Shown here piece after piece: positions 45,832-62,815 of a DNA stretch of 64,000 nucleotides. The stretch is taken from positions 1-64,000 of the forward strand of contig JAKPPU010000215.1 in the NCBI GenBank assembly GCA_029547185.1, given 5' to 3'. The position numbers and the translations under genes were made by a program. Within the stretch, counting starts at the first letter, position 1. Each line of letters opens with the position of its first letter. The notes below the pieces were generated by a model. That model was given only the letters and a program-made list of their open reading frames with translations, had not been told where the DNA came from and ran no database searches. Source of the stretch: Deltaproteobacteria bacterium (GTDB taxonomy: Bacteria; Desulfobacterota; Desulfomonilia; UBA1062).

Positions 45832-47478
45832 TTATTTTCTCTTTGCCAGCTCCTCCATCCTGAGGTCTTTCCTCAGGATCTTGCCCACGGTGCTCTTGGG
45901 AAGGGCCTCCCTGAACTCGACTTCCTCAGGCCACTTGTATTTTGCGAGCTTGTCCTTGCAGAAATCGATGATCTCTTCCTGTGTCGCTTTCTGTCCGGCC
46001 TTGAGGACGATGAAGACCTTTACGGACTCTCCGCGGCTGGGGTGCGGCACGCCGATCGCACAGGCCTCCTGCACCTTGGGATGCTGATAGAGCACCTCGT
46101 CGATATCCCGGGGATAGATGTTGTACCCGCCGGAGATGATCATGTCCTTGAGCCTGTCCACGATGAAGAAGTACCCGTCTTCATCCATATAGGCGATGTC
46201 TCCGGTATGGAGCCAGCCGTCACGGAGAACCTCTTTGGTCTCGGCGGGCATTCCTTTGTATTTCCTCATCACCTGGGGACCCCGTATGATCAACTCTCCC
46301 GACTTCCCCACCGGCACATCCGTCTTCCGGTCATTTATGTCGACGATCCGGCATTCGGTATCGGGCAGCGGTATCCCGATGCTTCCGGGCTTGGTCTTTC
46401 CCTTTGCAGACGGATTGACGTGTGTAGCAGGGGATGACTCGGTCATACCGAAGCCCTCACAGATAATGGCCCCTGTCTTCTCTTCGAACTGTTTGATGAC
46501 ATCGACGGGAAGCGGGGCGCTTCCGCAGAAGCACCCTGCGATATGGGAAAGATCTATCTCTTTGACCTTGGGATGATTGAGTATCCCGATATACATGGTC
46601 GGGACCATAGGCAGGAATGTGGGCTTGAACTTCTCGAGGGCCTCGATGAGCTTATCGGGCTGGGGTTTCGGCACCAGAACATTTTCCCATGCCATGTAGA
46701 CGGCGTAGTTCATCGATACGTTCAGGCCGAATACATGAAAAAATGGGAGGGCGCCAAGCATTACCTCGCCCCCCCTTTGGAAGGATGTAAACCACGAAGA
46801 AAGCTGTTGAACATTCTTGCTCAGGTTCCCATGCGTGAGCTCTACTCCCTTTGAAACGCCGGTCGTCCCGCCTGTATATTGATATTGTCCAACATCATCC
46901 ATTGTGATCCGGATATCCCGGCTCACCGGAGGATACTGTTCGATCACCTTCTTCCACCGGTGGACCCGGTCGGCTTCCTTGACATCTGCCGCAAGGCCGG
47001 GGATGGGGAGATAATCGGCAATGGAGGCAACAACGATGTTCTCTATCGACGTCTTGGGCCTTAAATCTATCATCCTGTTTGCCAGAAGATCAATGGTTAC
47101 CAGGACTTTTGCACCGGAGTCATTGTACTGATGAAGGAGCTCCTTATCCGAGTAGAGGGGATTGTTCATTACCGCAATGCCCCCTACCTTCAGGATGGCA
47201 TAGTACGCAGCCACACACTGGATCGTATTGGGAAGGATGATCGCAACACTATCCCCCTTCCTGATTCCCAGATCCAGCAGGCATTCCGCAAAGCGATCCA
47301 CCGTATCCTTCAATTGTCTGAAAGTAAGCTTGCACCCGAGAAAGTTCACCGCCGTGTTGTCGGGAAAATCGCGGGCCGACCTCTCTAGAAAGTCAGGGAT
47401 GCACAGCTCCTCGAAATTCACCTTTGCCTGCACACCTTCAGGATAAGAAGACAGCCAGGGCCTCTCCATGTAATTCAT
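45832..47478 (-). CDS. Acyl-CoA synthetase (AMP-binding ligase)
   Basis: 548 residues, the length of medium/long-chain acyl-CoA synthetases. Motifs: YTGGTTGVSKGVELTHGN (P-loop, about residues 215-232), EGFGMTESSPATHVNP, GWLHTGDIAYMDEDGYFFIVDRLKDMIISGGYNIYP and the C-terminal Lys in PKSTVGKILRKDL. It activates a carboxylic acid to its CoA thioester. Its neighbours, an alpha/beta hydrolase before and an OYE-type reductase after, suggest one pathway: hydrolysis, activation, reduction. The gap to the OYE gene is about 135 bases. Confidence 0.9.
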   Translation of the reverse strand: MNYMERPWLSSYPEGVQAKVNFEELCIPDFLERSARDFPDNTAVNFLGCKLTFRQLKDTVDRFAECLLDLGIRKGDSVAIILPNTIQCVAAYYAILKVGGIAVMNNPLYSDKELLHQYNDSGAKVLVTIDLLANRMIDLRPKTSIENIVVASIADYLPIPGLAADVKEADRVHRWKKVIEQYPPVSRDIRITMDDVGQYQYTGGTTGVSKGVELTHGNLSKNVQQLSSWFTSFQRGGEVMLGALPFFHVFGLNVSMNYAVYMAWENVLVPKPQPDKLIEALEKFKPTFLPMVPTMYIGILNHPKVKEIDLSHIAGCFCGSAPLPVDVIKQFEEKTGAIICEGFGMTESSPATHVNPSAKGKTKPGSIGIPLPDTECRIVDINDRKTDVPVGKSGELIIRGPQVMRKYKGMPAETKEVLRDGWLHTGDIAYMDEDGYFFIVDRLKDMIISGGYNIYPRDIDEVLYQHPKVQEACAIGVPHPSRGESVKVFIVLKAGQKATQEEIIDFCKDKLAKYKWPEEVEFREALPKSTVGKILRKDLRMEELAKRK

Positions 47479-47502: not shown

Positions 47503-48342
47503 CTATTCCTTGTAAAGGAAATCCAGTACGATCCGGTTGAACTCCTCCGGTTTTTCGAAGTTGGGGAGGTGTCCGCTCTCCTCGACAATGTAGACCAGGG
47601 AATTTTTTATTCTCTCATGCCCGTAATACGCATGGTCTACCGGAAAGCTCTTATCATGCCTCCCCCAGATGATCAGGGTCGGGGACTTGATCTCCCCGAG
47701 TCTGGACATCATCGGGTAGACCGCTTCTTTCCTTATGCCGGAAAGGCAGAATAAGGCGCGGAGCAATCTCAGGCAAGCCTGCGACGCCCCGGGCATCGCG
47801 GAAAGCTTATAGTAGAAGTCGATGGTTTCATCGCCCAGAACCTTGGGGTCATAAACGAGAGATTCCAAAAACTGGCGCGTCCCGTTTCTGTTTGGACGGG
47901 TCAGAAGCTCGCCGAGGACAGGCAGAGTCGCGATACGATTGGTAAAGGGAGTGTAGGTTCCGAAGCCTCCGCTGTCCACGGGAATGAGCTTGGCCACTTT
48001 TTGAGGATACTCGAGGGCGACCTTGATGCTCAGCGCCCCGCCAAGAGACACGCCCATGAAATGTGCCTTCTCGATGTTCAACGCTTCCATGAAGCCGTTG
48101 ATGAATTTCGGCATGAAGGATATGAAATCATTTATTGGCGTTTTGTCCGAGAATCCGAAACCCGGAACATCGAATGCAAAGACCCTGAATTTCTTTGCGA
48201 GCTCATCGATATTGTGCCGCCAGATCTCCATCGATGTGCCGAATCCATGGATGAGAATCAATGCATCTCCCTGCTCGCCCACCGACCAGTAACGAGTAGT
48301 GATCCCCTCGATCTTGAGATACTTATCTTCACGCTGGGCCAT
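47503..48342 (-). CDS. Alpha/beta hydrolase
   Basis: 279 residues. The oxyanion region is ILIHGFGTSMEIW, the nucleophile Ser99 is in FMGVSLGGA, the acid lies in IIWGRHDKSFPVDHAYY and the His in VEESGHLPNFEKP. It resembles meta-cleavage-product hydrolases and haloperoxidase-like esterases. It is the first gene of the leftward operon whose promoter (48410-48448) carries a TetR-type operator. The start at 48342 follows GAGGAGG. Substrate unknown. Confidence 0.87.
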   Translation of the reverse strand: MAQREDKYLKIEGITTRYWSVGEQGDALILIHGFGTSMEIWRHNIDELAKKFRVFAFDVPGFGFSDKTPINDFISFMPKFINGFMEALNIEKAHFMGVSLGGALSIKVALEYPQKVAKLIPVDSGGFGTYTPFTNRIATLPVLGELLTRPNRNGTRQFLESLVYDPKVLGDETIDFYYKLSAMPGASQACLRLLRALFCLSGIRKEAVYPMMSRLGEIKSPTLIIWGRHDKSFPVDHAYYGHERIKNSLVYIVEESGHLPNFEKPEEFNRIVLDFLYKE

Positions 48343-48409
48343 ACGCATCCTCCTCAAGTTGAATTACTTCCGGCCACGGACATCCGCTATTCCGAAACCA
48401 TCATTTAAG

Positions 48410-48448
48410 GTATACCAACAGTTTATTTTATTTATCCCTATTAGTCAA
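48410..48448 (-). promoter_or_regulatory. Promoter of the leftward hydrolase-ligase-reductase operon with degenerate operator
   Basis: On the minus strand TTGACT (48443-48448), 17 bases, TAAACT (48420-48425). The -10 box lies inside ATAAACTGTTGGTATAC (48410-48426), which matches the repeat GTATACT-N3-AGTATAC at 11 of 14 positions and in the same register as the rightward sites. About 70 bases to the ATG at 48342. Confidence 0.6.
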
Positions 48449-48758
48449 GCTCGATTTATACTTGCTATTTCAATTTCCTTATCATAATGATTTTTTTATC
48501 ATTTATTGTTTATAATGTTTATCTTCGACTATTATAATTGTATACCATCAGTATTTATAACCATTATTATCATGCCTTGTTTTTGGTTTGGCCGTTCGGA
48601 CGGCCTCACCTTAATCTAAGTCAGGAGATTCGATTTCCGGTTTATATTCAACAAGTAATAGTAGACCGGCAGAATAAATGAATAAGGACAAGTCATAACC
48701 CCCAGCATGCTGAAGAGATCTTTATTCCCGATCTTTCTTGACAAAATCAATGCCCTAT
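48449..48758. other. AT-rich divergent intergenic region
   Basis: Between the leftward and rightward promoters there is no gene. It is markedly AT-rich compared with the flanking genes. It holds a second degenerate operator-like site GTATACCATCAGTATTT (48540-48556, 11 of 14 positions) without clear promoter boxes at the standard spacing, and a small hairpin GGCCGT-TCGG-ACGGCC (48590-48605). Confidence 0.45.
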
Positions 48759-48775
48759 GTATACTAGAAGTATAC
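48738..48775 (+). promoter_or_regulatory. TetR gene promoter with perfect GTATACT-AGA-AGTATAC operator
   Basis: TTGACA (48738-48743), 16 bases, TATACT (48760-48765). The 17-base inverted repeat at 48759-48775 covers the -10 box completely. The repressor gene starts 63 bases later. This arrangement is classic autoregulation by promoter occlusion. Confidence 0.8.
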
Positions 48776-48837
48776 TTCATGAGTACAGCTTGCAAGCGGT
48801 TCTCTTTATAAAATACGTTTAGATAGGATCGATACTC

Positions 48838-49506
48838 ATGGCATTAACAAGTAAAAAGGTTTTCAATCAGGAAGTAAAGCGGCTCACCATCCTCCAGGCA
48901 GCCAAAGAGTTGTTCCTGGAAAAGAAATACAGCGCCATCACGATGGATATGATCGCCCACCGGGCAGAGATCACGAAGAAAACACTGTACTCGTATTTTC
49001 CCTCCAAGCTGGCCCTTTTCATCCATGTTTTCGATGAGTACCTGCAGCAGCTCCACAAGCAGCTCGCCAAGGGAGCGAAAAAGAAGCTGCCCAGCGACGA
49101 ACTGATCCTCTCCCTCGTCGACATCCTGTATAAGTTCACCAAGGAGAACGAAAGGTTCATGCGCCTCTACTGGACGCTCGATTCCGACGAGTTTGACGGG
49201 CTCATCCCTGAAGAGCTGATGAATCGGATCAAGGTCTGGACCAAGGCCATACACGAAGAGATGATCAGGATCATGGACAGGGCCCATAAAGAAGGCCTCC
49301 TCCACGATGAGTATGATACCATGCTGATCATTCACCTGTTCTCGGCCATGAACAAGGGAATATTCGTCCACACGAATAAAGAAAACAAGTTCAATATTGC
49401 CAATGTGGATACTGACAGGCTGTACATGATCGTAACCAGGATGCTCGGCTCCGTGCTCTTTAAAAGGCCCGTAAAAAGCTTGGAGGGAATACGGAAACAG
49501 GCATAG
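48838..49506 (+). CDS. TetR/AcrR-family transcriptional regulator
   Basis: 222 residues. The N-terminal DNA-binding domain is RLTILQAAKELFLEKKYSAITMDMIAHRAEITKKTLYSYFPSKLALFIHVF (about residues 15-65); the rest is an all-helical ligand domain without a recognisable subfamily. It lies just behind a perfect palindrome that recurs at other promoters in the next 8 kb, so it is the likely local repressor. FadR- or acyl-CoA-responsive TetR proteins are common next to acyl-CoA synthetases, so the ligand may be a CoA ester (inference). Confidence 0.9.
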   Translation: MALTSKKVFNQEVKRLTILQAAKELFLEKKYSAITMDMIAHRAEITKKTLYSYFPSKLALFIHVFDEYLQQLHKQLAKGAKKKLPSDELILSLVDILYKFTKENERFMRLYWTLDSDEFDGLIPEELMNRIKVWTKAIHEEMIRIMDRAHKEGLLHDEYDTMLIIHLFSAMNKGIFVHTNKENKFNIANVDTDRLYMIVTRMLGSVLFKRPVKSLEGIRKQA

Positions 49507-49745
49507 CCGGCCTGCAGCCAGAGGCCGGGTGGTCGTCCCTTTACCGATGAGCCTCCTTATCGGACAGCTTCTTCTTTCGCCCTTCGATGGCCGATGCGAA
49601 GAAGTGCGCATACCTCTGGCTATGCCGGCTTACAAGGGTAGGGTTTCTACTGACGGGAGGCAGATAAAATCAGTACTACCACGAATTTACATGCATCTTC
49701 TCTTCCCGTATCTTAGACTTAAATCCATACTCAGGAGGACAACGC

Positions 49746-50999
49746 ATGAACAACTCTGAAAAGCAATTGCTCGAAAAGCTTTGGAACTATCCCCTTTTTG
49801 AAGCCCTTGCCCACAGGAGAGGACTCCGTCTCCCCCAGGGATGCAATATCACGAAAGCTCCCTTCGGTCACATGTCCGCAAAAGAGCCTGTTCCGTTAAA
49901 CGAGTTCGAAACCGCTATCCTGTGCTGGGCCGGCCATGGCGTCACGGGAACCATCTCCTCTGACCTCGACTACACTACGCATTTCATGAACTCTTTCATC
50001 GGCAGGACCCATCCGAATCCCTGCAATGATCAGCACCAGGAACTGATGTACATCGACGACTCCGGCGTTTATCTCTACCGGCCCAAAGACCCGACTCAGA
50101 ATGTGGAGTTCCAGACGCCCGAGGACAGGGAAAAGGTCGTCGCATCGTTTGCGGATGCGAAGATAAAGATTCTGGACGGCAGGCCCTACGTACCCGAAGC
50201 CGCACTGATGAAGAGCAACTACTTCAACACGAACAAGCCAGGCACCACTGCATTCATGCCGGTCGTCGATGTCACCTATGAATATATGAATCTCATCCTG
50301 GGCTCATGTGCATTCGAGCGCTGGCAGATCGTCGATGACCGGACCGGCGAGATGTGCGGTTTGAAAAAATGGGTGGACAACGGTTATCTGAACGGCCCGG
50401 TAGTTCCCTTGAGCTGGTTCGAGATGGCCGCCTTCAACGCATGCATGTCCACGGCACACTATATGGTAATGAACATCTCTCTGGCAGCCACGGCCATGGG
50501 TCTTGCAGGCTGGCATTACGGAGGATACGTATCTCTGATTCTCCTGGGCGGAACGCCGCTGACCAACGGGCTGGGCTTCAGGTTCATCACCGGAAAGGAC
50601 AAGATGCCCACCCCGATCGGCAAGGACGGATTCATCGAGTCGCTCTGTCCGCCCTATGTCAAGAACATGGATGAGGCGGTTGACAAGTTCTATGACATGA
50701 AATACGGCAATACCGGGCACTTCGGCAAGGATTACAACGGCCTTACCCCTTGGAAAGACAAAGAGATGCACAAGAAGATCAACCTCCCGGACGAGCAGAG
50801 CAAGGAGATGGCCAAGTCTTTCCTGAATTACGTCTATAACACCTACGGCAGATGCCCGGCCTTCGTGGACGCGATATTCCTGCCGGTCGCATATGCTGCC
50901 CATCACCCTGACCTTGATTTCTACGATAAGTACTACCCGAAAGAAATGGTCAGTGATGATGTCAGGAACCATATGAAGGTCTGGCACGGAAAGGAATAG
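49746..50999 (+). CDS. Unknown protein, possibly distant nitroreductase-fold oxidoreductase
   Basis: 417 residues, no signal peptide. I do not recognise a family with certainty. PLNEFETAILCWAGHGVTG at about residues 56-74 and MNISLAATAMGLAGWHYGGYVSLILLGG at about 241-268 resemble the helix and flavin-contact segments of nitroreductase/SagB-type oxidoreductases, but the usual N-terminal Arg/Ser FMN motif is not clear. The protein is rich in Trp, Tyr and Met. AGGAGG precedes the ATG. It follows the TetR gene by 240 bases with no promoter of the shared type, so it may be co-transcribed with it. A catabolic flavoenzyme is a guess. Confidence 0.7.
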   Translation: MNNSEKQLLEKLWNYPLFEALAHRRGLRLPQGCNITKAPFGHMSAKEPVPLNEFETAILCWAGHGVTGTISSDLDYTTHFMNSFIGRTHPNPCNDQHQELMYIDDSGVYLYRPKDPTQNVEFQTPEDREKVVASFADAKIKILDGRPYVPEAALMKSNYFNTNKPGTTAFMPVVDVTYEYMNLILGSCAFERWQIVDDRTGEMCGLKKWVDNGYLNGPVVPLSWFEMAAFNACMSTAHYMVMNISLAATAMGLAGWHYGGYVSLILLGGTPLTNGLGFRFITGKDKMPTPIGKDGFIESLCPPYVKNMDEAVDKFYDMKYGNTGHFGKDYNGLTPWKDKEMHKKINLPDEQSKEMAKSFLNYVYNTYGRCPAFVDAIFLPVAYAAHHPDLDFYDKYYPKEMVSDDVRNHMKVWHGKE

Positions 51000-51113
51000 A
51001 CAGAGGATACATCCATGAACGACCGCAACCGGGTAACACTCCGCTCTCCTCTTTCGACGGATAGAGAACCTGACCGGGGCTTGAATCTCGTTCATGGATA
51101 TATTCCAAGCCAT

Positions 51114-51149
51114 AGGCAGGCAGGGTGCCTTAGCAGGTGTCCTGCCTGC
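51114..51149 (+). other. Intergenic hairpin between the 417-residue gene and the small ORF
   Basis: GGCAGGCAGG (51114-51123) pairs perfectly with CCTGCCTGCC (51140-51149), 16-base loop. No T-run follows. It could be an attenuator or mRNA-stability element. Confidence 0.4.
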
Positions 51150-51177
51150 CAAGAAAGTGATCATGGAGGATTAGTGC

Positions 51178-51405
51178 ATGCCGCTGATGAAATCACCCGC
51201 AGGAGATATGGAAATAACCATCAGCAAAATCAGCGCTGACAGTGACAGACTGATAACCACGGGCAAGTTCGGGGCATGGGACTCCACCATTTATTTCACG
51301 GTGGATGACGTCCTTGACATGATGAAGCTCATGCTCAACCGTCAGGTCGTGGGCTTCATCTTGAAGCTGCCCATTCTCATTGTGAAAACCAAACTGCTCA
51401 AGTAA
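51178..51405 (+). CDS. Small hypothetical protein (75 residues)
   Basis: No family is recognised. Sequence MPLMKSPAGDMEITISKISADSDRLITTGKFGAWDSTIYFTVDDVLDMMKLMLN..., with a hydrophobic end (VVGFILKLPILIVKTKLLK) that may touch the membrane or a partner. GGAGG lies upstream and codon use looks like that of the neighbours. It lies between the 417-residue gene and a strong hairpin, so it is likely the last gene of that transcript. Confidence 0.6.
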   Translation: MPLMKSPAGDMEITISKISADSDRLITTGKFGAWDSTIYFTVDDVLDMMKLMLNRQVVGFILKLPILIVKTKLLK

Positions 51406-51462
51406 GGCTTTTGGCAGGAGAGGAACATTATTCCACTTCGCATAGCAGCCTCCTCTACGGAT

Positions 51463-51494
51463 GGGCAGGGAGGATCGTTCGGCCCTCCCTGCCC
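51463..51494 (+). terminator. Stem-loop terminator after the small ORF
   Basis: GGGCAGGGAGG (51463-51473) pairs with CCTCCCTGCCC (51484-51494), 11 bp with a ten-base loop, about 55 bases past the small ORF stop. It covers an ATG at 51461 that would otherwise start the kinase, supporting the later kinase start. Confidence 0.5.
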
Positions 51495-51637
51495 CTGGTA
51501 CGGGATTGTTCGAGGATAAAAGTTCTCTTGACAACACCTCTCGCTTTCTCGTCATAAAATGGGCAGAGAAGGGGCAAGCTCGTGATCTCAAAAAACAGAG
51601 TTCAAGGAGCAGACAACCTGCAGAAGAGGACCGTTCA

Positions 51638-53482
51638 ATGCGATCAGGACAAAAGAATGCCGCCTCACATCCTGAAAGGGAGACAGAGCCTGGGAAATGC
51701 ACCAGAGAGATGATGCCCCTGCTGCTCAATGAGCTGCCTGTGGCTGTCGTCCTGTACCGGGATGACGGTGCAGTTTCCGACTGCAACGATACGGCATTGC
51801 GGCTGTTCGGGTACAGCCGCAGGGAAATGACGGAGCTGCGGCATTCGGATCTGCTGCCCAGGATATTCCTCAAAATCACCCAGGGGCCCTTTACCCGGGA
51901 GAACACGACGAACGGCGAGTTCATATGGGTGTGCAGACGCAGAAAGGACGGGACAGTGTTCCAGTGCGAGCAGAGCAGCAAGATGATCACCTTGGACGGT
52001 CAGGATTTCTGCCTGATGTGCTATCGGCAGTCAGACTCCTTATCAATGCCGGAGAGGAACCCTTCCATCGAAAGCAAGATATCCCGGGTGCTCACTCTCG
52101 ACAATCCTTTCTGCATCCAGACATGGCAGGAGATCAATGGAGAGCTGCATTTAATCGGGTTCAACCCGACATTGGAAGAATACACTGTCGGGAAAATACG
52201 GGACTACACAGGGCGTACCGTCCACGAGTTTTACGGTCAAAGAGGACGAATGGACGTGGTGGACAGTATCTATGAGGTCTACCGGAACAGGGGAATGCTC
52301 CGAATAGAGACCTTCTGCGATTTCCTCGTGACAGGGAACGAGCGCCACGTCGATACGGTTTCGTTTTTCGTCCCGCCGAACATGGTCGTGCAATACATCG
52401 AGGACATCACCGAGCAGCGAAAGGCACTTCTTTCCCTCAAGGAAAGCGAAGAGCGATTCAAGGCACTCTTCCTGGGAAGCCCGATACCGGTCATGACGTG
52501 GAGGCATTCCGAAAACGACTTTGTCCTCATCGAGTACAATTACGCTCTGCAAAAGCTTGCAGGCGAGAAGGTATCAGACCTGTTGGGGGCCGGGTGCTCT
52601 CAGCTCTTCCGTGACTATCCGGGGATTATCGGGGACATGCGCCGCTGTTTCGAGGAAAAGACGATCGTCCATCGCAACACGAAATTCCGGATGATGCTTT
52701 CCGGAGAAGAGAAGCTTCTGGCAGTCACCTTTGCATACGTGCCCAATGACCTTGTCCTCACGCACATCCATGACATCACCGACCAGAAAAAGGCCGAGGA
52801 TGAGCTGATCCGCTACCAGCAGGAACTGAGCAACCTCTATGAAAAGCATCTCGATATTCTCGAACACGAACGCAAGCGCATTTCTCAGGAGCTCCACGAC
52901 GGAATCGGGCAGTACCTTTCCACCATAAAAGTAAGCACTGAAAACCTGCTTGCAAGCAGCAGCTCGAAGCTTGACCGTGAGAAGCTCGAAGAGAGGCTCC
53001 GATCGAATATCGCCCTGCTCAAGGAAGCGATCATCGACGTATCGAGGGTGTCCATGGACTTGCGGCCGTCCATCCTGGACGACCTGGGGCTCATAGCCAC
53101 GATCAACTGGTTCCTCCGGGAATACGGAAAGGTGTACAAGGACATCAAGGTTGAAAAGGACATACGGGTGGAGGACTCCGAGATCCCCCAGAAGATCAAG
53201 ATCGTGGTGTTCAGGGTCCTCCAGGAGTCCATGAACAACATAGCGGCTCACAGTAAAGCCAGCCTGGTACGAATTGCAATGCACAAGGAAGGAGATGCGC
53301 TGGAATTCTCCGTTGCGGACAACGGGAGAGGCTTCGACCTGACGGATCTTCAGAAAAGCCGGTGCGGCCTCGGGATTGCTGGCATGCGCGAGCGGGTGAC
53401 CTTTTCCCAGGGCAGGTTCTGCATCGAATCTTCCAGGGGAAAAGGTACCGTGATACGGATCACCTGGCACCTCGCCCTCTGA
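51638..53482 (+). CDS. Cytoplasmic PAS-domain histidine kinase, NarL-partner type
   Basis: 614 residues without signal peptide or membrane helix. Three PAS-like domains (about residues 26-135, 150-270 and 275-390) are followed by a HisKA_3 dimerisation domain with the phosphorylated His420 in RKRISQELHDGIGQYLS, and a HATPase_c domain with NNIAAHSKA, VADNGRGFDL and GLGIAGMRERV. This pairs with NarL/FixJ-type regulators such as the one at 55435. With no sensor domain outside the cell, it must sense an internal ligand or redox state. ATG 51638 follows GAAGAGGA; an ATG at 51461 lies inside a hairpin. Confidence 0.9.
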   Translation: MRSGQKNAASHPERETEPGKCTREMMPLLLNELPVAVVLYRDDGAVSDCNDTALRLFGYSRREMTELRHSDLLPRIFLKITQGPFTRENTTNGEFIWVCRRRKDGTVFQCEQSSKMITLDGQDFCLMCYRQSDSLSMPERNPSIESKISRVLTLDNPFCIQTWQEINGELHLIGFNPTLEEYTVGKIRDYTGRTVHEFYGQRGRMDVVDSIYEVYRNRGMLRIETFCDFLVTGNERHVDTVSFFVPPNMVVQYIEDITEQRKALLSLKESEERFKALFLGSPIPVMTWRHSENDFVLIEYNYALQKLAGEKVSDLLGAGCSQLFRDYPGIIGDMRRCFEEKTIVHRNTKFRMMLSGEEKLLAVTFAYVPNDLVLTHIHDITDQKKAEDELIRYQQELSNLYEKHLDILEHERKRISQELHDGIGQYLSTIKVSTENLLASSSSKLDREKLEERLRSNIALLKEAIIDVSRVSMDLRPSILDDLGLIATINWFLREYGKVYKDIKVEKDIRVEDSEIPQKIKIVVFRVLQESMNNIAAHSKASLVRIAMHKEGDALEFSVADNGRGFDLTDLQKSRCGLGIAGMRERVTFSQGRFCIESSRGKGTVIRITWHLAL

Positions 53483-53697
53483 TGAACCGTGTGTGTTTGG
53501 CCATTGCGGGATGGACGCTCATCCCAACGTACCCTTGACATTGTCCTGCTCCTCTTTCTGGCCACAACGCTCCATACGGAACTTGCCATGCCGGTTCCCG
53601 CAAGCCCAGGCCCCCGGCGGGAAATCTCCTCTCATGAAAGCCGGTTGCCGTTTCACCTTCGAGAGATAATAAATAAACTGCCGGTATATCATTTCAT
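53483..53697. other. Intergenic region without recognised gene
   Basis: Between the kinase stop and the next promoter I see no gene with a ribosome site, no repeat and no clear terminator. A 70-residue open frame (53489-53701) has no protein-like features. Confidence 0.4.
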
Positions 53698-53736
53698 TTG
53701 ACTACCTGAAGAGTTTTGAGTATACTATCAGTATAC
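53698..53736 (+). promoter_or_regulatory. Promoter of the double SnoaL gene with perfect GTATACT-ATC-AGTATAC operator
   Basis: TTGACT (53698-53703), 17 bases, TATACT (53721-53726). The 17-base inverted repeat occupies 53720-53736, over the -10 box, in the same register as before the TetR gene. About 115 bases lie between this site and the ATG at 53851. Confidence 0.75.
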
Positions 53737-53850
53737 TTTGGGAAAGGGTGCATGTTGTGCCAGAAGGTATTTAAAGGTGGCCACCGTGTGAGATGTACAC
53801 CTCATATTATGTTCCCGGGTACCATAAAATAATCGCGCTGGAGGATAGCT

Positions 53851-54795
53851 ATGGATCTTACGAATGTCAGCAGAGACGACAAGATCTGGAAGGATCATTT
53901 ACGGGCCAGGAAATTGACGAATATCTGGAAGTTCTACGATCATTTCAAAAAAGAGGAACCACTGCCTTACGATGAGATCTTTACCGATTACGCTGTCTGG
54001 ATAATGAACAGCAGATGGACCGACAAGGTGCCCTTTGCGGGTACGTATCAGGGAAAAGAGCAGATCACCAAACTGTTCGATGACTATTTCAAGGCACTTG
54101 AGATAATCAAGTTCGATCACGAGTATGAGATCGTCGACGGGTCTGAGGTCGTGGTGCACTTCAATCTGGTGGCAAAGGTCGTCGCCACGAACAAGATATT
54201 CGATATGGAGTTTTTCGATCATTTCAGGGTCGATGAGAGAGCGAAGATCATCTTCTGCAGAAGATACTATGACACCTTCACCTTTACCCTCCCCTTCAAG
54301 AAAGAGGGCCCCTCTCACATCGTCGACGTAAAGACGAACCCGAAAAACCACAAGATAAACTTCAATGTGGATTATGATCCGGCGAGACTCGTGTGGCAGA
54401 TCTATGAAGATTTCTATGAAGGGAGGCTCGAATCTGCCAAGGCGGCATGCCATCCGAACTTTGAGGTGAGCTACAAAGGGCCCGGGCTTAAGACGGAATA
54501 TGCCCTTGTCCCCTACCCGGGCAAGTATTATGGGATGTCGGGAATGGACGAGTTCATGATCAATCTCGGCATGACGGCAACCATGAATGATATCGACAGG
54601 TACTTCCTCGTGGAAGGCAACTGCGTGGAAATAATCTTCTATGAAGACTGGAGCGTAATAAAGAACGGCAACAAGTATATTGTGTACACGATAAATACCT
54701 GGCTTTTTGATGAAAACGGGAAGGCCATTGAAATGATGTGCTCTCCTGATCTCTATGAAATAGCAAAAGCATACCATCCCGAGTTCGATCTCTGA
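53851..54795 (+). CDS. Tandem SnoaL/NTF2-like domain protein
   Basis: 314 residues with two related halves. Half one (about 15-150) has FDHEYEIVDGSEVVVHFNLVAKVVATNKIFDMEFFDHFRVDERAKIIFCRRYYDTF; half two (about 170-310) has VDYDPARLVWQIYEDFYEGRLESAKAACHPNFEVSYKGPG...VIKNGNKYIVYTINTWLFDENGKAIEMM. Both fit the SnoaL-like NTF2 fold, a cone used for polyketide cyclases, dehydratases, isomerases and plain ligand binding. No catalytic residues can be assigned. GGAGG precedes the start, and the gene has its own operator. A fragment of a relative lies at 55027. Confidence 0.75.
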   Translation: MDLTNVSRDDKIWKDHLRARKLTNIWKFYDHFKKEEPLPYDEIFTDYAVWIMNSRWTDKVPFAGTYQGKEQITKLFDDYFKALEIIKFDHEYEIVDGSEVVVHFNLVAKVVATNKIFDMEFFDHFRVDERAKIIFCRRYYDTFTFTLPFKKEGPSHIVDVKTNPKNHKINFNVDYDPARLVWQIYEDFYEGRLESAKAACHPNFEVSYKGPGLKTEYALVPYPGKYYGMSGMDEFMINLGMTATMNDIDRYFLVEGNCVEIIFYEDWSVIKNGNKYIVYTINTWLFDENGKAIEMMCSPDLYEIAKAYHPEFDL

Positions 54796-54839
54796 GGGAT
54801 GGGATAAACTGTCGGGATAGGCGCCGCCGGAGGCGTGAG

Positions 54840-54889
54840 GGATGGTTCCTCGCGGGTAATCAGAGGGTTCCTGCAGCGAGGAACCATCC
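54840..54889 (+). terminator. Long inverted repeat after the double SnoaL gene
   Basis: GGATGGTTCCTCGC (54840-54853) pairs with GCGAGGAACCATCC (54876-54889), 14 bp perfect with a 22-base loop, 45 bases past the stop. No T-run follows. It is probably a transcription end or an RNA-stabilising structure. Confidence 0.5.
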
Positions 54890-55026
54890 TGCTCCTCTGT
54901 AATCAACCGGTTCTCTAGGATAAGGCATTGTAATTCCGCTCAGTGAGCATGCCTCATCCTTCTCCTTACGCACTCATTTATCCGGATTATCGCTCTCCCA
55001 ACCGATTCGGAGGAGGGGAGAGACCA

Positions 55027-55200
55027 TCAGCCGGGAAGATGGTTCATCCAGATCTCCTGCGAATCGTGGTAGCTCTTGAGCTCCATGAGATGGCCATTCT
55101 CATCAAAAATCAATGACTGGTTCAGGGTGATGTTAAAATCTTTCCCCGTTACGGCATCACCGAAATGAACATCGAGCAAGAAAAATATCGTGCCGGGATT
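55027..55200 (-). pseudogene. C-terminal fragment of a SnoaL/NTF2-like protein
   Basis: On the minus strand an open frame without a start reads TIFFLLDVHFGDAVTGKDFNITLNQSLIFDENGHLMELKSYHD... and ends at a stop at 55027-55029. It matches the end of the double SnoaL protein in kind (IVYTINTWLFDENGKAIEMM). It is cut off at the promoter of the response regulator, as if a rearrangement had placed that promoter inside an older gene. About 57 residues remain. Confidence 0.55.
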
Positions 55201-55238
55201 TGACAAAGAAGGATATCATAGGTATACTGTTAGTATCC
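55200..55238 (+). promoter_or_regulatory. Response regulator promoter with near-perfect operator
   Basis: TTGACA (55200-55205), 17 bases, TATACT (55223-55228). The site GTATACTGTTAGTATCC (55222-55238) has one mismatch in 14 and the same register over the -10 box. It lies about 200 bases before the regulator start, leaving a long leader. Confidence 0.75.
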
Positions 55239-55287
55239 TTAATAAAGGTACACGGAACCGGGAGAGGCCCTTGAGGCCGGAAGAGGG

Positions 55288-55368
55288 ATGAAGGAGAATT
55301 GGCCGCTCGTTTACATGCTCTCTCCCCTGTGGCAGGAATTGAAGCATCCATGGGAGTGCTGGCCGTGA
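55288..55368 (+). CDS. Possible short leader peptide (26 residues, four Trp)
   Basis: Inside the long 5' leader of the response regulator, an ATG behind AGAGG opens a 26-codon frame, MKENWPLVYMLSPLWQELKH then PWECWP, and a TGA at 55366-55368. The four Trp codons are unusual for chance sequence, but there is no clear alternative hairpin pair, so an attenuation role is only a thought. It may simply be noise. Confidence 0.2.
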   Translation: MKENWPLVYMLSPLWQELKHPWECWP

Positions 55369-55434
55369 TGCTACCGTGAAACGGCATGCACGTTGAATGC
55401 CCTGAGAGGAGCCCGAATGGGGGGAGGTATGACC

Positions 55435-56091
55435 ATGCCTGAGAAGTACAAGGTCGTCTTGGCTGAAGATCATGTTGTACTCAGACAGGGCCTGCGCTCA
55501 CTCCTTGAACAAAACCAGGAATTTGAAGTGGTCGCCGAGGCCTCCGACGGTCTGGAGGCCATACGGTGTGTGCAGCAGACTGCTCCGGACGTCCTCATTA
55601 TCGACCTCACCATGCCCCGGATGACCGGGATGCATGCCATAAAAGACATCAAGAGTGCGCATCCAGAGGTGAAGATCATCGTACTGACCGTACATACCGC
55701 TGAGGAATACGTATACGAGAGCCTCAAGGCAGGCGCCGACGGATACGTTCTCAAGGCGGCAGACTTCGGCGAGCTGATCATGGCCATCCGTTGTGTACTC
55801 ATGGGCAAGGCATACATCAGCCCGGACATCTCGGGTACTGTGGTTGTGGGGTACCTTAAAGGGAGTAAGGACAGGGAAGCCCCTTCAGGAAAAGAAAGTC
55901 TTACCCCGCGCGAGCAGGATGTGTTGAAGCTGGTGGCCGAAGGGTACAAGAATCGCGAGATCGGCGATATGCTGTGTGTGAGCATCAAGACCGTGGAAAA
56001 GCACCGGGAGAACATCAAGCGCAAGCTTGACCTCAACGGTACTTCGGCCATGATCGCCTATGCAATGGAGCATGGCATGGTCAAACGCTGA
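55435..56091 (+). CDS. NarL/FixJ-family response regulator
   Basis: 218 residues. The receiver domain has the acidic pair in LAEDH, phosphorylated Asp57 (LIIDLTMPRM), and the conserved Thr and Lys in VLTVHTA and VLKAADF. The C-terminal LuxR helix-turn-helix is LTPREQDVLKLVAEGYKNREIGDMLCVSIKTVEKHRENIKRKL. It is the natural partner of the kinase at 51638. The start at 55435 is chosen because GGAGG lies 7 bases before it; the ATG at 55429 is too close. Its promoter carries the shared operator, so it is under TetR control although the kinase gene is not obviously so. Confidence 0.93.
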   Translation: MPEKYKVVLAEDHVVLRQGLRSLLEQNQEFEVVAEASDGLEAIRCVQQTAPDVLIIDLTMPRMTGMHAIKDIKSAHPEVKIIVLTVHTAEEYVYESLKAGADGYVLKAADFGELIMAIRCVLMGKAYISPDISGTVVVGYLKGSKDREAPSGKESLTPREQDVLKLVAEGYKNREIGDMLCVSIKTVEKHRENIKRKLDLNGTSAMIAYAMEHGMVKR

Positions 56092-56274
56092 AGCTGATGG
56101 CGCAGGCAGGCGTTTGGCATCGGCAAAGCTGCCTCGATTCTTCATTCTCGCGCCTCTCCGAGAAGGACAAACCGGCCCTTTCTCTCATGGTAATCCGTTC
56201 TGGCAATAGGCCGTTTCGAGATATAAGAATTTCACAGTCCTCCATAAAATTTTCCGCAAGGTCCCATTGAGATA

Positions 56275-56313
56275 TGGACTTTCTTCCTCCCTTGGAGTAT
56301 ACTACTAGTATAC
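56275..56313 (+). promoter_or_regulatory. Promoter of the Cache-like protein gene with perfect GTATACT-ACT-AGTATAC operator
   Basis: TGGACT (56275-56280, one change from TTGACT), 17 bases, TATACT (56298-56303). The 17-base inverted repeat occupies 56297-56313. The gene starts 32 bases after it. Confidence 0.75.
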
Positions 56314-56344: not shown

Positions 56345-57316
56345 ATGCATATGAGAAACGTCATCGAGGAAATCGAAAGGATTGCTGATGATATCCAGTC
56401 CACATCCGTGGACGCGCGGAAAATCTCGGGGGAGATCGTGACCAGGATGGAATCGCTGTTTCGCAACGCGTCTTCCTTCGACACGAACATCGACACCATG
56501 GACCAGCGATACCAGTGGACGGAAAACACCTCGTACATGTGGACCCCCGATGAGGGAGAGGCGGGCTACGGCGTGGTCGCTGCAACCGGAGCGGTGCCTG
56601 TAGACGATGCCGTCAAGAGAGAACTGAGGTTGTACGAATATATGCGGCCGTTCCTCCGGGAGGCGTATGCAAGAAATCCATACGTTGATGAGACATGGTA
56701 CATCGACAAAAAATCCCTGGCGGTCGGCCAGACCTATCTGAGTCTCAGTGGCGCTCTACCTCCCGGATTCGATGCGGCAAAGGTCTGCGCGAGCGGGATC
56801 ACCTACTACGACTATTTTGGCTGGGTTGATGCAGCTCAGAATCCGGAGCGCATCCCGCGCTGGGCCCCGAGTCCCTTCATCGAGCTGCTCAGTTGCTTTA
56901 TCCAGGCTGTCCATGCCCCGATCTATAAAAGAGTGGATGATCCGGAAATGAGCGGATTTGCGGGAGTGCACTACAACCTGGAGTGGGTCAATGCCGCCAC
57001 AGTGGACAAGAGCAAAAACCGGATCATCATCGTCTCCGGCGGGGGAACGCTTGTCGGCGCCAGCATGGATGCGCTGCAGGCCATCCGGATGGAGCCGTTC
57101 GTCAAGCAGAAACCATCGTGGCAGGCATCCCAGGAAGTTCGGCACTATGTTGATGTGGAGCGTAATCTTGAGCGGGAAAAACCGGAAGAGCTGGCAGAGC
57201 TGTCACGGAAAATCCGCACCAGCGAGAGCTTCGAACATACGCTCTACGGCAGGAAATTCTCTGTGGTCCGAAGGAGCGTGCCCGAACTGGACTTCTATGT
57301 AGCAGCGCTCATATGA
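56345..57316 (+). CDS. Stand-alone Cache-like sensory domain protein
   Basis: 323 residues, no signal peptide, no membrane helix and no output domain. The central part, with ETWYIDKKSLAVGQTYLSLSG, SGITYYDYFGWVDAAQNPERIPRWAPSPF and GFAGVHYNLEWVNAAT...RIIIVSGGGTLVGAS, follows the double-Cache ligand-binding pattern normally found outside the cell in chemoreceptors and kinases. The first 45 residues look helical. A free cytoplasmic Cache-like protein under the shared operator, next to a kinase without its own sensor domain, may be a ligand-binding subunit. Function is inferred. GAGGAGG precedes the start. Confidence 0.65.
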   Translation: MHMRNVIEEIERIADDIQSTSVDARKISGEIVTRMESLFRNASSFDTNIDTMDQRYQWTENTSYMWTPDEGEAGYGVVAATGAVPVDDAVKRELRLYEYMRPFLREAYARNPYVDETWYIDKKSLAVGQTYLSLSGALPPGFDAAKVCASGITYYDYFGWVDAAQNPERIPRWAPSPFIELLSCFIQAVHAPIYKRVDDPEMSGFAGVHYNLEWVNAATVDKSKNRIIIVSGGGTLVGASMDALQAIRMEPFVKQKPSWQASQEVRHYVDVERNLEREKPEELAELSRKIRTSESFEHTLYGRKFSVVRRSVPELDFYVAALI

Positions 57317-57446: not shown

Positions 57447-58259
57447 CTAATTTTCCTTCATCTCCCTGAACGGATCATAGGTCCGATAGTCTTCCCCCAG
57501 GTCGAGGAACCTTCCCATTCCGCCATCCAGCGGGATGATCGCCCCGTTTATATAGTCGGCATCATCCGATGCCAGGAAGGTCACGAGAGCGGCCACGTCT
57601 TCAGTCCGCCCTATCCTGCGCATCGGAATCTTTTCGATGACCTGGTCTCCGATGCGTGTCTCGAGCATGCTCCTGTTCAGTTTGGTCAGGATGAATCCCG
57701 GACAGACCGTATTGACGTTGATCTTATGGGGTCCCAGTTCAGCTGCGACAATAGGTGTCATGGCAATGATCGCCCCTTTTGCCGCCGAGTACGAAGGGGA
57801 TCCCATTCCGATCATTCCCATCATCGAAGCGATGTTGATGATCTTGCCCCCGCCTCTTTTTATCATTTCCGGGGCAGCGTATTTCGTGCAGCGGAAAACG
57901 CTTCCGGGATCGACTGCCATGATGAGATCCCACATCTCTTCCCTGGTCTCGAGCAGCGTCGTTCTCTCTCCGATCCCGGCATTGTTGACGAGGATATCTA
58001 TTCTGCCGTTCTCCCGGATGACTGCCTGTACGAGGTTCCTGATTTCTTCCGATTTGAGGAGATTCACCTGAACGACCTGAGCCCTTCCCCCTTCCTCATC
58101 GATGAGCTTTTTCGTTTCCCTTGCTGCCTTGAGATTGATGTCGGCTATAACGGCCACGGCTCCTTCACGGGCGAATCGCCGGGCTATCTCCCTCCCGATG
58201 TCACCGCCCGCCCCGGTTACGATTGCAACCTTGTCAGTGAATCTCTCTCTTATCACCAT
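57447..58259 (-). CDS. Short-chain dehydrogenase/reductase
   Basis: 270 residues. The NAD(P) site is TGAGGDIGREIARRF, followed by NNAGIGE, the catalytic Ser in IASMMGMIG and the Tyr-Lys pair SYSAAKG. It is full-length and FabG-like. Acidic residues after strand 2 (IADINLKAAR) suggest NAD(H) preference. Substrate unknown. The ATG at 58259 follows AGGAGG. A terminator lies 40 bases upstream, so it may be transcribed partly apart from the cluster to its right. Confidence 0.9.
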   Translation of the reverse strand: MVIRERFTDKVAIVTGAGGDIGREIARRFAREGAVAVIADINLKAARETKKLIDEEGGRAQVVQVNLLKSEEIRNLVQAVIRENGRIDILVNNAGIGERTTLLETREEMWDLIMAVDPGSVFRCTKYAAPEMIKRGGGKIINIASMMGMIGMGSPSYSAAKGAIIAMTPIVAAELGPHKINVNTVCPGFILTKLNRSMLETRIGDQVIEKIPMRRIGRTEDVAALVTFLASDDADYINGAIIPLDGGMGRFLDLGEDYRTYDPFREMKEN

Positions 58260-58298
58260 GGGTGATTCCTCCTGCATAACGGTAAGACTTTTTCATGG

Positions 58299-58338
58299 AA
58301 AAAAGCCACAGAGCACATGGTGTAATGCGCTCTGTGGC
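58299..58338 (-). terminator. Rho-independent terminator after the dehydrogenase fusion gene
   Basis: GCCACAGAGC (58305-58314) and GCTCTGTGGC (58329-58338) form a perfect 10-bp stem. On the minus strand it is followed directly by TTTTTT. It lies 22 bases past the stop of the fusion gene. Confidence 0.85.
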
Positions 58339-58359
58339 CATATCCTAAAGGAGGGATTA

Positions 58360-61020
58360 CTACATCATCTTTTGGTAGATCTCGACGCACTGCTCCATGC
58401 TCGGCACTTTCGGAGTGAACAGAGTCGGGAATTCGGAAAGAGTTGTAACTACGAGATCGGAAATGGCGTCCTCGGGTACTCCCAGCTCGCTCAGCGTCAA
58501 CGGATGGTTGATGTCCTTCATGAGATTGACCACGTACTCGATCGACGCCTCGGCAGCCTTCCTCCTCGACATCTTCGAGGTGTTGATTCCCATGGCCTCT
58601 GCGAACTCAACGAGCAGGTCCTCACAGGGTTCCAGACAGAACCTCATGACATGCGGCAGAGCTACTCCGCACAGGGCTCCGTGATGTGCATGGAACTTTG
58701 CTCCGACTGCATGGGCTATACCGTGCCCCAGACATGTCGCGCTCATATTGATCGCGATGCCGGCATTGGAAGAAGCCAGGAGCATGCCGAACCGTGCATC
58801 CACATCATCACCCTTTTCCACTGCCCTGCGGAAGTACTTGGAGATTTGCCGGACGGCTTCCAGAGCGAATTGCTTGCTCATCACATTTCGCCTTACACCC
58901 AAGACGGTTTCAATCGCGTGGCTCAAGGCATCCATGCCGGTGGCCGCGGTTATCTTTGCAGGCAGACCTACCGTGAGCAACGGGTCCAGAATGGCCACAT
59001 TGGGCGATGCCGGATACTCGCAGAGATTTATCTTGCGGTTGATGGCGCGGTTCATGACCACCGCGATGTTCGTCATCTCACTCCCGGTTCCTGCCGTGGT
59101 GGGAATGGCGATATGCGGGGTTATGGGGTCATGGAGTGCATACATCGTGATGTTGTCCATGGCCTTACCGCCCCGTGCCAGAGTAACGGCGGCAACCTTG
59201 GCCGTATCGATGGAGCTTCCGCCGCCGAGACTTACAACGCACTCGGCACCGACTTTCTTGCAGAATTCAACGGCCTCGTCAATTGTCTCATAGCCCGTAT
59301 TTTCGACTACGTTATCGAATACACCCACACAGTAGCTCCCCATCGCCTTGACTACGGAGTCCACCAATCCGGCCGCCTTGATTCCCTTGTCAGTAATGAC
59401 GACCGCTCTTTTGACGTTCATAAGGTGCATCTCATACTGGAGGCTCGATATGAAGCCCGGACCGGCACTGACCTTGGTCGGGTGATTGAAGTGGAACGAT
59501 TTCGCCGGAGTCGTATACTGATGAAGGACATTGAACAACAGGCAGCGTTCACGCTCTGCCTCCGGGTTCGACTCGATCCGCTTGATCTGCGTGTACTCTT
59601 CCAGGCCCGCTGCACCCCACTCACGGCCGAAACCGCTCTGTTTGTAACCGCCGAAGGGATTCATATCGCCGTAGTTGTGCCAGTCGTTGATCCAGATGGT
59701 TCCCGCCTTTATCCTGGCTGCGATGTCTTCAGCCCTGTTCATGTCCTTTGTGAACACGCCTCCGGCAAGTCCGAACGGGGTATCGTTCGCGATCTCGACG
59801 GCCTCGTCGTAGTCCTTGAAGGGAATGACGCAGAGCACGGGCCCGAAGATCTCCTCCTGGGCGATCCTCATGGAATTCTTCACATCGGCGAATATGGTTG
59901 GTTCGCAGTAGAATCCGCCCTTGAGCTTGGGATCATCCACCAGGTTGCCGCCGTAAACCAGCCTGGCGCCTTCCTTTTTTCCGATATCGATGTATCCCAT
60001 TATCGTATCGAGCTGTTTTTTACTCACAATGGGCCCGAACTGTGTTGTTGGCTCTAGCTGATATCCGATTCTCAAGCCCTTGGTACGTGCGACGAGCTTG
60101 TCGAGGAATTTGTCGTAGATCTTCTCATGAACGAGGAGCCTCGTACCGGACTCGCAGATCTGCCCTGAATGGAGAAACGTGCCGCACATTGCGCCGTCCA
60201 CCGCAAATTCCATATCTGCATCCTCGCAGATGATGTTCGGTGATTTGCCGCCGAGCTCGAGGGTGACCTTCTTGATGTTCTTGGCCGCCATGCTCATGAT
60301 ATCGATGCCCACTTCGGTGGAGCCGGTGAAGGCGATCTTGTCGATCTTCGGATTCATGCATAGGGCTCTCCCCACAGTCGATCCTGGGCCGGTAACGACA
60401 TTCAGGACCCCTTTGGGAATCCGGGTTCTCTTGAGCGCCTCGGCAATGAGCAGCATGGTAAGGCTCGTATCCGATGCGGGCTTGACCACCACGGTGTTTC
60501 CCATGGCAAGCGCGTGGATACATTTGTACATGGCGGACAGGAAGGGGAAATTCCACGGCACGATGCCCACGCAGACGCCCAACGGCTCTCTTCTCTGGTA
60601 ATTCATCTGTGCCACGAAACCGCTGCGGGACTTGGGCAGATCTTCCTTCCACTTGAAATCGTAGGCAGCATACCGAGAGAGGTTTCTCAATCCGCCAATA
60701 ACGGTGACGACATCGAAAATGGTCCTCGTGATCAGGCCACCGGAATCGAGCGCCTCATACTGGGCGATGATCGGCATGTATTCATACAGGAGGTCAGAAA
60801 GCTCGATGAGTATCCTTGAGCGTTCCACCGGTGGCATATCGCTCCACACCCCTGAATCAAAAGCTTTGCGTGCTGCATCGACTGCAGCATCCGCATCTTC
60901 GGGACCCCCGTAGGCGAATGTGGCGAAAGGCTTCCCGGTCCCCGGGTCGATGGCTTCAGCCTTGCCCCCTTTTATCGCCTCAACTTGCTCACCGTTGATG
61001 AACATCTTGAAGTGTTCCAT
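58360..61020 (-). CDS. Fusion of non-acylating aldehyde dehydrogenase and iron-dependent alcohol dehydrogenase
   Basis: 886 residues in one frame. Residues 1-485 are a class of NAD(P)-dependent ALDH: PWNFP (Asn157), the general base Glu255 in VTLELGGKS, and the nucleophile Cys289 in HSGQICESGTR. These match the hydrolytic ALDHs that make free acids, not the CoA-acylating domain of AdhE. Residues about 505-886 are an iron ADH: GGGSSID (599-605), with likely Fe ligands Asp697, His701, His766 and His780. It would oxidise a primary alcohol through its aldehyde to the acid, or work in reverse. AGGAGG precedes the ATG. It is leftward behind the racemase-family gene. Confidence 0.88.
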   Translation of the reverse strand: MEHFKMFINGEQVEAIKGGKAEAIDPGTGKPFATFAYGGPEDADAAVDAARKAFDSGVWSDMPPVERSRILIELSDLLYEYMPIIAQYEALDSGGLITRTIFDVVTVIGGLRNLSRYAAYDFKWKEDLPKSRSGFVAQMNYQRREPLGVCVGIVPWNFPFLSAMYKCIHALAMGNTVVVKPASDTSLTMLLIAEALKRTRIPKGVLNVVTGPGSTVGRALCMNPKIDKIAFTGSTEVGIDIMSMAAKNIKKVTLELGGKSPNIICEDADMEFAVDGAMCGTFLHSGQICESGTRLLVHEKIYDKFLDKLVARTKGLRIGYQLEPTTQFGPIVSKKQLDTIMGYIDIGKKEGARLVYGGNLVDDPKLKGGFYCEPTIFADVKNSMRIAQEEIFGPVLCVIPFKDYDEAVEIANDTPFGLAGGVFTKDMNRAEDIAARIKAGTIWINDWHNYGDMNPFGGYKQSGFGREWGAAGLEEYTQIKRIESNPEAERERCLLFNVLHQYTTPAKSFHFNHPTKVSAGPGFISSLQYEMHLMNVKRAVVITDKGIKAAGLVDSVVKAMGSYCVGVFDNVVENTGYETIDEAVEFCKKVGAECVVSLGGGSSIDTAKVAAVTLARGGKAMDNITMYALHDPITPHIAIPTTAGTGSEMTNIAVVMNRAINRKINLCEYPASPNVAILDPLLTVGLPAKITAATGMDALSHAIETVLGVRRNVMSKQFALEAVRQISKYFRRAVEKGDDVDARFGMLLASSNAGIAINMSATCLGHGIAHAVGAKFHAHHGALCGVALPHVMRFCLEPCEDLLVEFAEAMGINTSKMSRRKAAEASIEYVVNLMKDINHPLTLSELGVPEDAISDLVVTTLSEFPTLFTPKVPSMEQCVEIYQKMM

Positions 61021-61149
61021 TGATTCCTCCTTTTCTCACTACCCTTTTGTTTTTTATCTTAGTATCTTGAATCGTCCACCCATGGCGGATTCGTCTCCCG
61101 ATACCTTCATACAGCGATGTTTCCAGGCACTTCTTTTACCTGATCGAGC

Positions 61150-61923: not shown

Positions 61924-61978
61924 AGAATCTCCCTCCCCATCTCGTTCTTTTTAACCAAACGCTGCAGGCATTCCTTTC

Positions 61979-62710: not shown

Positions 62711-62815
62711 CGTATACCCCCTTTCACTGCTTGTCTGCTCTCTCTTGCACGAGAAGCATCCATTTAAGGTCTGTTTGAATTCAGTCCTCTTTCCCGGCAG
62801 GCATGTCCGGATACC

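Follow-up and report, generated by a model that had tools for sequence, protein, structure and literature searches.

A predicted TetR-family regulon with a palindromic operator on -10 boxes, and second operator copies upstream of its catabolic operons, in a Deltaproteobacteria bacterium

The palindrome GTATACT-N3-AGTATAC recurs at several promoters around a TetR-family gene in a 64,000-nucleotide stretch of DNA (the window) from a Deltaproteobacteria bacterium. Do these copies mark one regulon, which protein reads them, and why do some promoters carry two? The five places named in the first-pass annotation are all present: 48759, 53720 and 56297 are perfect, 55222 has one mismatch, and 48410 has three (11 of 14). 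One further copy with three mismatches, at 48540, was absent from that list. The window holds seven motif places at three mismatches or fewer, against a shuffle mean of 0.24, and seven was reached in none of 100 shuffles. The predicted sites are as follows.

48410..48426, minus strand: predicted main operator of the hydrolase / acyl-CoA synthetase / OYE operon; -10 TAAACT, -35 TTGACT, spacer 17
48540..48556, minus strand: upstream partner site, 130 bp from 48410, without a -35 box; the intervening DNA is 79% A+T
48759..48775, plus strand: perfect predicted operator on the -10 box of the tetR promoter (TTGACA-16-TATACT)
53673..53689, plus strand: weak operator-like site, 47 bp upstream of 53720
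53720..53736, plus strand: perfect predicted operator on the -10 box of the SnoaL gene promoter (TTGACT-17-TATACT)
55222..55238, plus strand: predicted operator with one mismatch on the -10 box of the response-regulator promoter (TTGACA-17-TATACT); none at the orthologue in the relative G297
56297..56313, plus strand: perfect predicted operator on the -10 box before the 323-aa gene (TGGACT-17-TATACT, a weak -35 box of 4/6)

A three-mismatch operator-like copy at 48770-48786 overlaps the end of the tetR operator.

The whole genome (4,191,688 bases, 215 contigs) was scanned with the motif, using the reversed motif as control. At two mismatches or fewer, 15 places were found (five perfect, two with one mismatch, and eight with two), compared with six for the control. 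All seven places with at most one mismatch lie on the contig of the window, between 48759 and 76950, which is 28.2 kb of 4.19 Mb; all eight two-mismatch places are on other contigs. The genome hits therefore cluster here, as the earlier annotation had proposed to check, and the cluster continues beyond the window edge. This concentration argues for a TetR regulon.

The placement of the sites on promoters points the same way. The first half-site had been described as the -10 hexamer itself, with a -35 box 16 or 17 bp upstream, and this is true at all five places; the hexamer is TATACT, or TAAACT at 48410. The comparison was extended to 14 gene-proximal sites in two genomes, where the best -35 box was scored 15-18 bp before the -10 hexamer of the operator; main and partner sites were separated by nearness to the gene. 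A -35 box of at least 5/6 was found at 11/14 gene-proximal sites, nine of them with a perfect TTGACA, and at 0/8 upstream partners. On the opposite strand the counts were 0/14 and 0/8, and among 20,000 random places 1.4%. The exceptions are 56297 (4/6), 76934 on the contig (2/6), and C79:606 in G297 (2/6). The contrast between gene-proximal sites, partners and background supports repression at the -10 box.

The genes around these sites within the window are listed below.

44514..45695, minus strand: OYE-family flavin oxidoreductase (domain/family matches)
45832..47478, minus strand: AMP-binding acyl-CoA synthetase (domain/family matches)
47503..48357, minus strand: alpha/beta hydrolase, HsaD/BphD-like, under the equivalog cut-offs
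48838..49506, plus strand: TetR-family regulator, 222 aa, candidate binder (PF00440, E 1e-13)
49637..49692, plus strand: conserved non-operator element before the 417-aa gene, GGTAGGGTTTYTACTGA then AAAATC.GTA.TACCACGAAT
49746..50999, plus strand: 417-aa protein without a Pfam match, presumed to be read from the tetR promoter; 90% identical in G297
51461..53482, plus strand: PAS sensor histidine kinase (HisKA_3, HATPase_c) without its own operator
53851..54795, plus strand: SnoaL-like protein, single SnoaL_2 match
55393..56091, plus strand: NarL-type response regulator (Response_reg and GerE)
56345..57316, plus strand: 323-aa protein without a Cache match
57447..64000, minus strand: distal part of the run headed by the operator at contig position 67469, past the window (SDR, ALDH-Fe-ADH fusion, Asp/Glu racemase family, metallo-beta-lactamase fold, LeuD/DmdB family, aconitase-type large subunit)

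Some of the domain names given at first sight have to be changed. The protein called a double SnoaL has one SnoaL_2 match (and is SnoaL-like), and its halves are only weakly alike (E 0.02). A Pfam search of the 323-aa protein, described as Cache-like, gives no Cache domain. The idea of a complete private sensing pathway finds only partial support: the NarL-type gene does have a one-mismatch site, but the idea is overstated because the kinase gene lacks a site of its own, the response-regulator site is missing in the relative, and no Cache domain was found. Transcription from the tetR promoter may extend to the kinase gene.

The view of a compact regulon with one operator over its -10 boxes is well supported in kind and too small in extent, as the contig has three more sites beyond the window. 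A perfect site at contig position 67469 stands before a leftward run of eight genes from 67222 to 57447, in the order MmgE/PrpD, PrpF, aconitase-type large subunit, LeuD family, MBL fold, Asp/Glu racemase family, ALDH-Fe-ADH fusion, and SDR; the leftward genes that end the window on the right are thus part of the same set. Another perfect site, at 76548, precedes a leftward run from 76402 to 68270 (PEP-mutase/ICL family, BNR-type repeats, MMPL/RND, DUF1302, DUF1329, and a 249-aa protein). Each leftward run is probably one operon, judging from the common strand and short gaps. The third site, at 76934, has one mismatch, lies 445 bp before an OmpA-family gene and has no -35 box. Two overlapping operator-like sites are seen at 76923-76950, ahead of the same gene.

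The 417-aa protein occurs in 16/395 genomes of the phylum, including its own, the others in that count being 30-39% identical; the G297 protein is 90% identical. None of ten relatives has a Pfam match. The profile of the relatives gave no PDB match, and the single sequence gave one chance-level match (E 0.83). A likeness to nitroreductases was seen by eye only. Conserved RRxxRF-like and AMGLGGW-like motifs are present in the alignment. The element at 49637-49692 is strongly conserved between the two genomes, whereas the surrounding spacer has diverged, and its first 17 bases occur once per genome at two mismatches or fewer in both. The response regulator might bind it. An RNA leader was considered for this element and rejected, with no Rfam match in the window and folding that is not unusual (z -0.29 and -0.39).

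The relative G297 is the MAG Deltaproteobacteria SM3-B3m, from the same genus, and its TetR is 75% identical; G297 and G326 were taken as one genome, since contig numbers and positions agree. Relatives of the hydrolase (two, 54% and 73%), the synthetase, OYE, TetR, the 417-aa protein, the kinase, the 323-aa protein, SnoaL and SDR are found on two G297 contigs, which also carry genes of both far operons (prpD and dml/exporter). The order is rearranged: downstream of tetR, on one strand, come the 417-aa, kinase and 323-aa genes, a 317-aa relative of the 323-aa protein precedes SnoaL and SDR, and the second hydrolase gene is divergent to the prpD run. The tetR promoter is likewise TTGACA-16-TATACT. 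Motif sites head the rearranged runs, including those with the SnoaL, SDR and 323-aa genes; that these genes sit in other runs which again start with a site counts for the regulon. G297 also has the response regulator (79% identical). Its gene, which follows an ALDH-ADH gene and a hairpin-like stretch, has no site in 4.4 kb, so control of the response regulator is not conserved.

In a comparison of 42 genomes from the class, sites with at most one mismatch number seven in the window genome, three in G297, and one or two in four others; control matches number 1-3 in 17 genomes. Six members of the genus without the TetR have no site at this threshold. The exporter gene shows the same presence pattern in the genus as the TetR, and the pattern therefore ties the motif to the whole island rather than to the TetR alone.

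Taken together, these observations make an autoregulated TetR-family regulon with repression at the -10 box the probable reading. A dimer of the TetR encoded at 48838-49506 would bind GTATACY-N3-RGTATAC, a palindrome that provides the -10 hexamer of TTGACA-like promoters (spacer 15-18) in its first half, and bound TetR would keep RNA polymerase off. A ligand, perhaps a pathway acid or acyl-CoA, would release it. The predicted single targets are tetR (perhaps with the 417-aa and kinase genes) and the SnoaL, response-regulator and 323-aa genes. The predicted operon targets are hydrolase-synthetase-OYE, prpD/mii-like/dmdAB-like/ALDH-ADH, and dml-like/RND exporter.

The paired layout is new relative to the first-pass annotation, which omitted the partners 120-130 bp from the operators of three leftward operons. 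Eight promoters in the two genomes, mainly of catabolic operons, are preceded at 109-131 bp by a second, non-promoter copy, with A+T-rich DNA in between. The spacings, start to start, in the window genome and G297 are 130 and 129 for the hydrolase operon, 129 and 129 for dml/exporter, and 120 and 131 for prpD; G297 adds the second hydrolase (130) and the 317-aa/SnoaL/SDR run (109). Pairs head every catabolic run seen, plus the SnoaL run in G297. At the response-regulator, 323-aa and G297 tetR promoters, no partner within 300 bp exceeds a score of 4.4. The remaining promoters have sites at other distances: the tetR promoter of the window shares 48540 at 219 bp, the SnoaL promoter has the weak site at 47 bp, and 76934 has a shared site at 257 bp.

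The site matrix was trained on 14 sites, including the G297 partners 9637 and 15734, whose scores are thus inflated; the other six partners were outside the training set. The 131-bp partner of the G297 prpD promoter (L101:9852) scores 6.6, under the 9-bit limit, and was accepted by its place. In 200 mononucleotide shuffles of each upstream stretch, 0-2% reached the best partner score at paired promoters, the score used for G297 prpD being that of a shared site at 279 bp and not of the 131-bp partner. The stretch from -23 to -112 is 70-90% A+T at the eight paired promoters, compared with 47-61% at six others. The DNA between the pairs is 67-88% A+T, with 7/8 at 70% or more, compared with 96/20378 overlapping 110-bp windows of the contig stretch.

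How might the second copy work? At the three operons the TetR may join the promoter operator and the weaker copy 120-130 bp upstream in a small loop, which would tighten repression; this part of the explanation is tentative and somewhat less likely than not. Helical phasing of the paired sites is suggestive, no more. With all eight pairs at 10.5 bp, R is 0.914 and p is 0.00015 (0.0015 with a period scan) against a null of random spacings of 90-160. With one value per family, a small sample in which the second hydrolase is counted with the first, p is 0.009 or 0.032 by choice of member, and 0.034 or 0.083 with the period scan. Orthologous spacers retain some likeness (85 and 83 of 112 positions, z 3.7 and 4.9), so the equal spacing may be inherited. 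In a fuller version of the looping idea, likewise somewhat doubtful, the single-domain TetR would have two tiers of promoters: lone -10 operators for itself and accessory or signalling genes, and phased, looped pairs about 12 turns apart for the catabolic and export operons.

It is quite possible, if short of probable, that the same TetR regulon uses the upstream site without a loop. The site would then bound or block an A+T-rich activator or UP-element region, or be a relic or decoy. The A+T content of the intervening DNA fits such a role, as does its general lack of helical AA/TT periodicity (p<0.1 in 2/8 spacers), and the sample behind the phasing is small. Against this explanation stand the recurrence of 129-130 bp at non-orthologous promoters and the fact that the sole orthologous promoter with a different spacing is off by 11 bp.

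Two further candidates were set aside. Curved DNA between the sites was rejected, as the shuffle p fell below 0.1 just for E_G297 (0.037) and C_G297 (0.077) among the eight. Two two-mismatch sites 148 bp apart in the window genome (C211:59233 and 59381; L013 4234 and 4382) were considered as an eighth target and left unconfirmed. They precede PorG/PorA/PorB- and NuoEF-like genes (pyruvate:ferredoxin oxidoreductase-like, named by eye from translations), have no good -35 box, and have no counterpart site at the loci of either G297 PorG homologue (84% each). This pair was excluded from the eight; its inclusion lowers R from 0.914 to 0.807 (p 0.001 at 10.5 bp).

The TetR regulon, with or without loops, depends on the TetR being the reader of the palindrome, and it is the best candidate. 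The protein exceeds the TetR_N (PF00440) cut-off of 24 with 51.2 bits, and its AlphaFold model is all-helical (ten helices, mean pLDDT 86.5, pTM 0.80). It scores under the cut-off in all 22 listed NCBIfam named TetR groups (FasR, KstR, BetI, FadR, RutR and others), the best being 55.8 bits against 330 for FasR. As first described, the only TetR gene here follows the first perfect site: one of the 25 TetR_N genes of the genome is on the site-bearing contig, with an operator on its own promoter, which counts for the TetR as binder. The palindrome is at the tetR promoter in the window genome and G297, as a variant in G051, and absent in G318. A TetR search of the phylum at E 1e-20 found 2/297 genomes (its own and G051), and of the class at E 1e-15, 3/42.

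G051 belongs to another family of the same phylum, and its TetR is 43% identical. The promoter there is TTGACA-16-TATAAT, followed 10 bases on by GTAGACCGACGGTATAC, in which the two changed inner positions (C, G) are symmetrical; a single C there is also found at 48410 and 48540. The 3.7-Mb genome has 75 places at three mismatches or fewer, about 0.003 expected per 150 bp, and as a whole shows no motif excess (75 against 92 for the control). The variant palindrome gives a separate tie of the motif to the TetR. In G318, the TetR is 58% identical, and its gene shares a run with SDR, SnoaL-like, aconitase-type and lyase-like genes. No site was found in the 3.6-kb tetR locus or at the promoter of the gene run, there are two weak distant matrix matches in 18.8 kb, and the genome has two places at two mismatches or fewer compared with 12 for the control. 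A TetR without the motif counts against the TetR reading.

This case, together with the response regulator being conserved in G297 too, is what could be said for another island regulator, such as the NarL-type protein, reading the palindrome while the TetR is merely located there. We regard this as rather improbable: the variant palindrome stands on the tetR promoter of G051, where the 15-kb stretch has no other match to the proteins of the contig stretch (E 1e-8). That TetR-dependent sites activate at some promoters is very improbable. In its favour, the operator at G297 C79:606 precedes TTGACA instead of covering a -10 box and C9:76934 lacks a -35 box; against it, 11/14 gene-proximal sites cover a -10 box with a good -35, a repressing place.

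The gene content of the proposed TetR regulon gives some indication of function. The best solved match of the PrpF-like protein is 3-methylitaconate isomerase 3g7k (E 5.5e-103), the small subunit exceeds the LeuD/DmdB cut-off, and the lyase-like protein matches petal death protein 1zlp and 2,3-dimethylmalate lyase 3fa3. The PrpF-like and lyase-like proteins are under the NCBIfam equivalog cut-offs for prpF, OMA tautomerase and prpB. An isomerase, a hydratase and a lyase acting together could convert an alkylitaconate-type acid to pyruvate plus a carboxylic acid for the synthetase, which could activate it. The cluster looks like one for the breakdown and export of a greasy compound, a substrate class suggested by its genes.

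Mii, DmdAB and Dml are enzymes of the lower nicotinate-fermentation pathway. The PrpF-like, LeuD/DmdB-type and lyase-like proteins are shared with that set, although the PrpF-like and lyase-like members fall below equivalog level. AmeABCD of Castellaniella defragrans is described as an exporter of apolar monoterpenes (PMC6394551). DUF1302, DUF1329 and RND proteins occur together in that system (PMC6394551), as in the run 76402-68270.

With a whole, partly conserved regulon and a sharply defined operator, the targets, ligand and hierarchy are open to joint testing. Autoregulated local regulons of the TetR family are known from the KstR, FadR and RutR type. The TetR_N helix-turn-helix, the palindromic operator, and control of the own promoter and neighbouring operons are shared with that type; the differences here are that most main sites are fused to the -10 box, that remote second sites exist, and that the protein stays under the named-model cut-offs. 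In LacI/GalR repression loops, two operators lie some 10-13 turns apart, one of them at the promoter. The operator layout here is alike, but the protein family is unrelated and the loop is inferred. In the TetR-like repressor Mce3R of Mycobacterium tuberculosis the TetR motif is doubled and the site is not a palindrome; the authors suggest that looping between operators may occur (PMC11667970), whereas here a single 222-aa TetR is matched with a palindrome. Among the literature matches listed, which mostly leave out subscription papers, no demonstrated looping by a TetR-family repressor was found, the Mce3R suggestion being the only one. If the operator pairs described here do loop, they would exemplify DNA looping by a TetR-family protein, which in the literature consulted is so far only suggested for Mce3R, and a single protein in a single cell would provide a natural comparison of repression from paired and from single sites.
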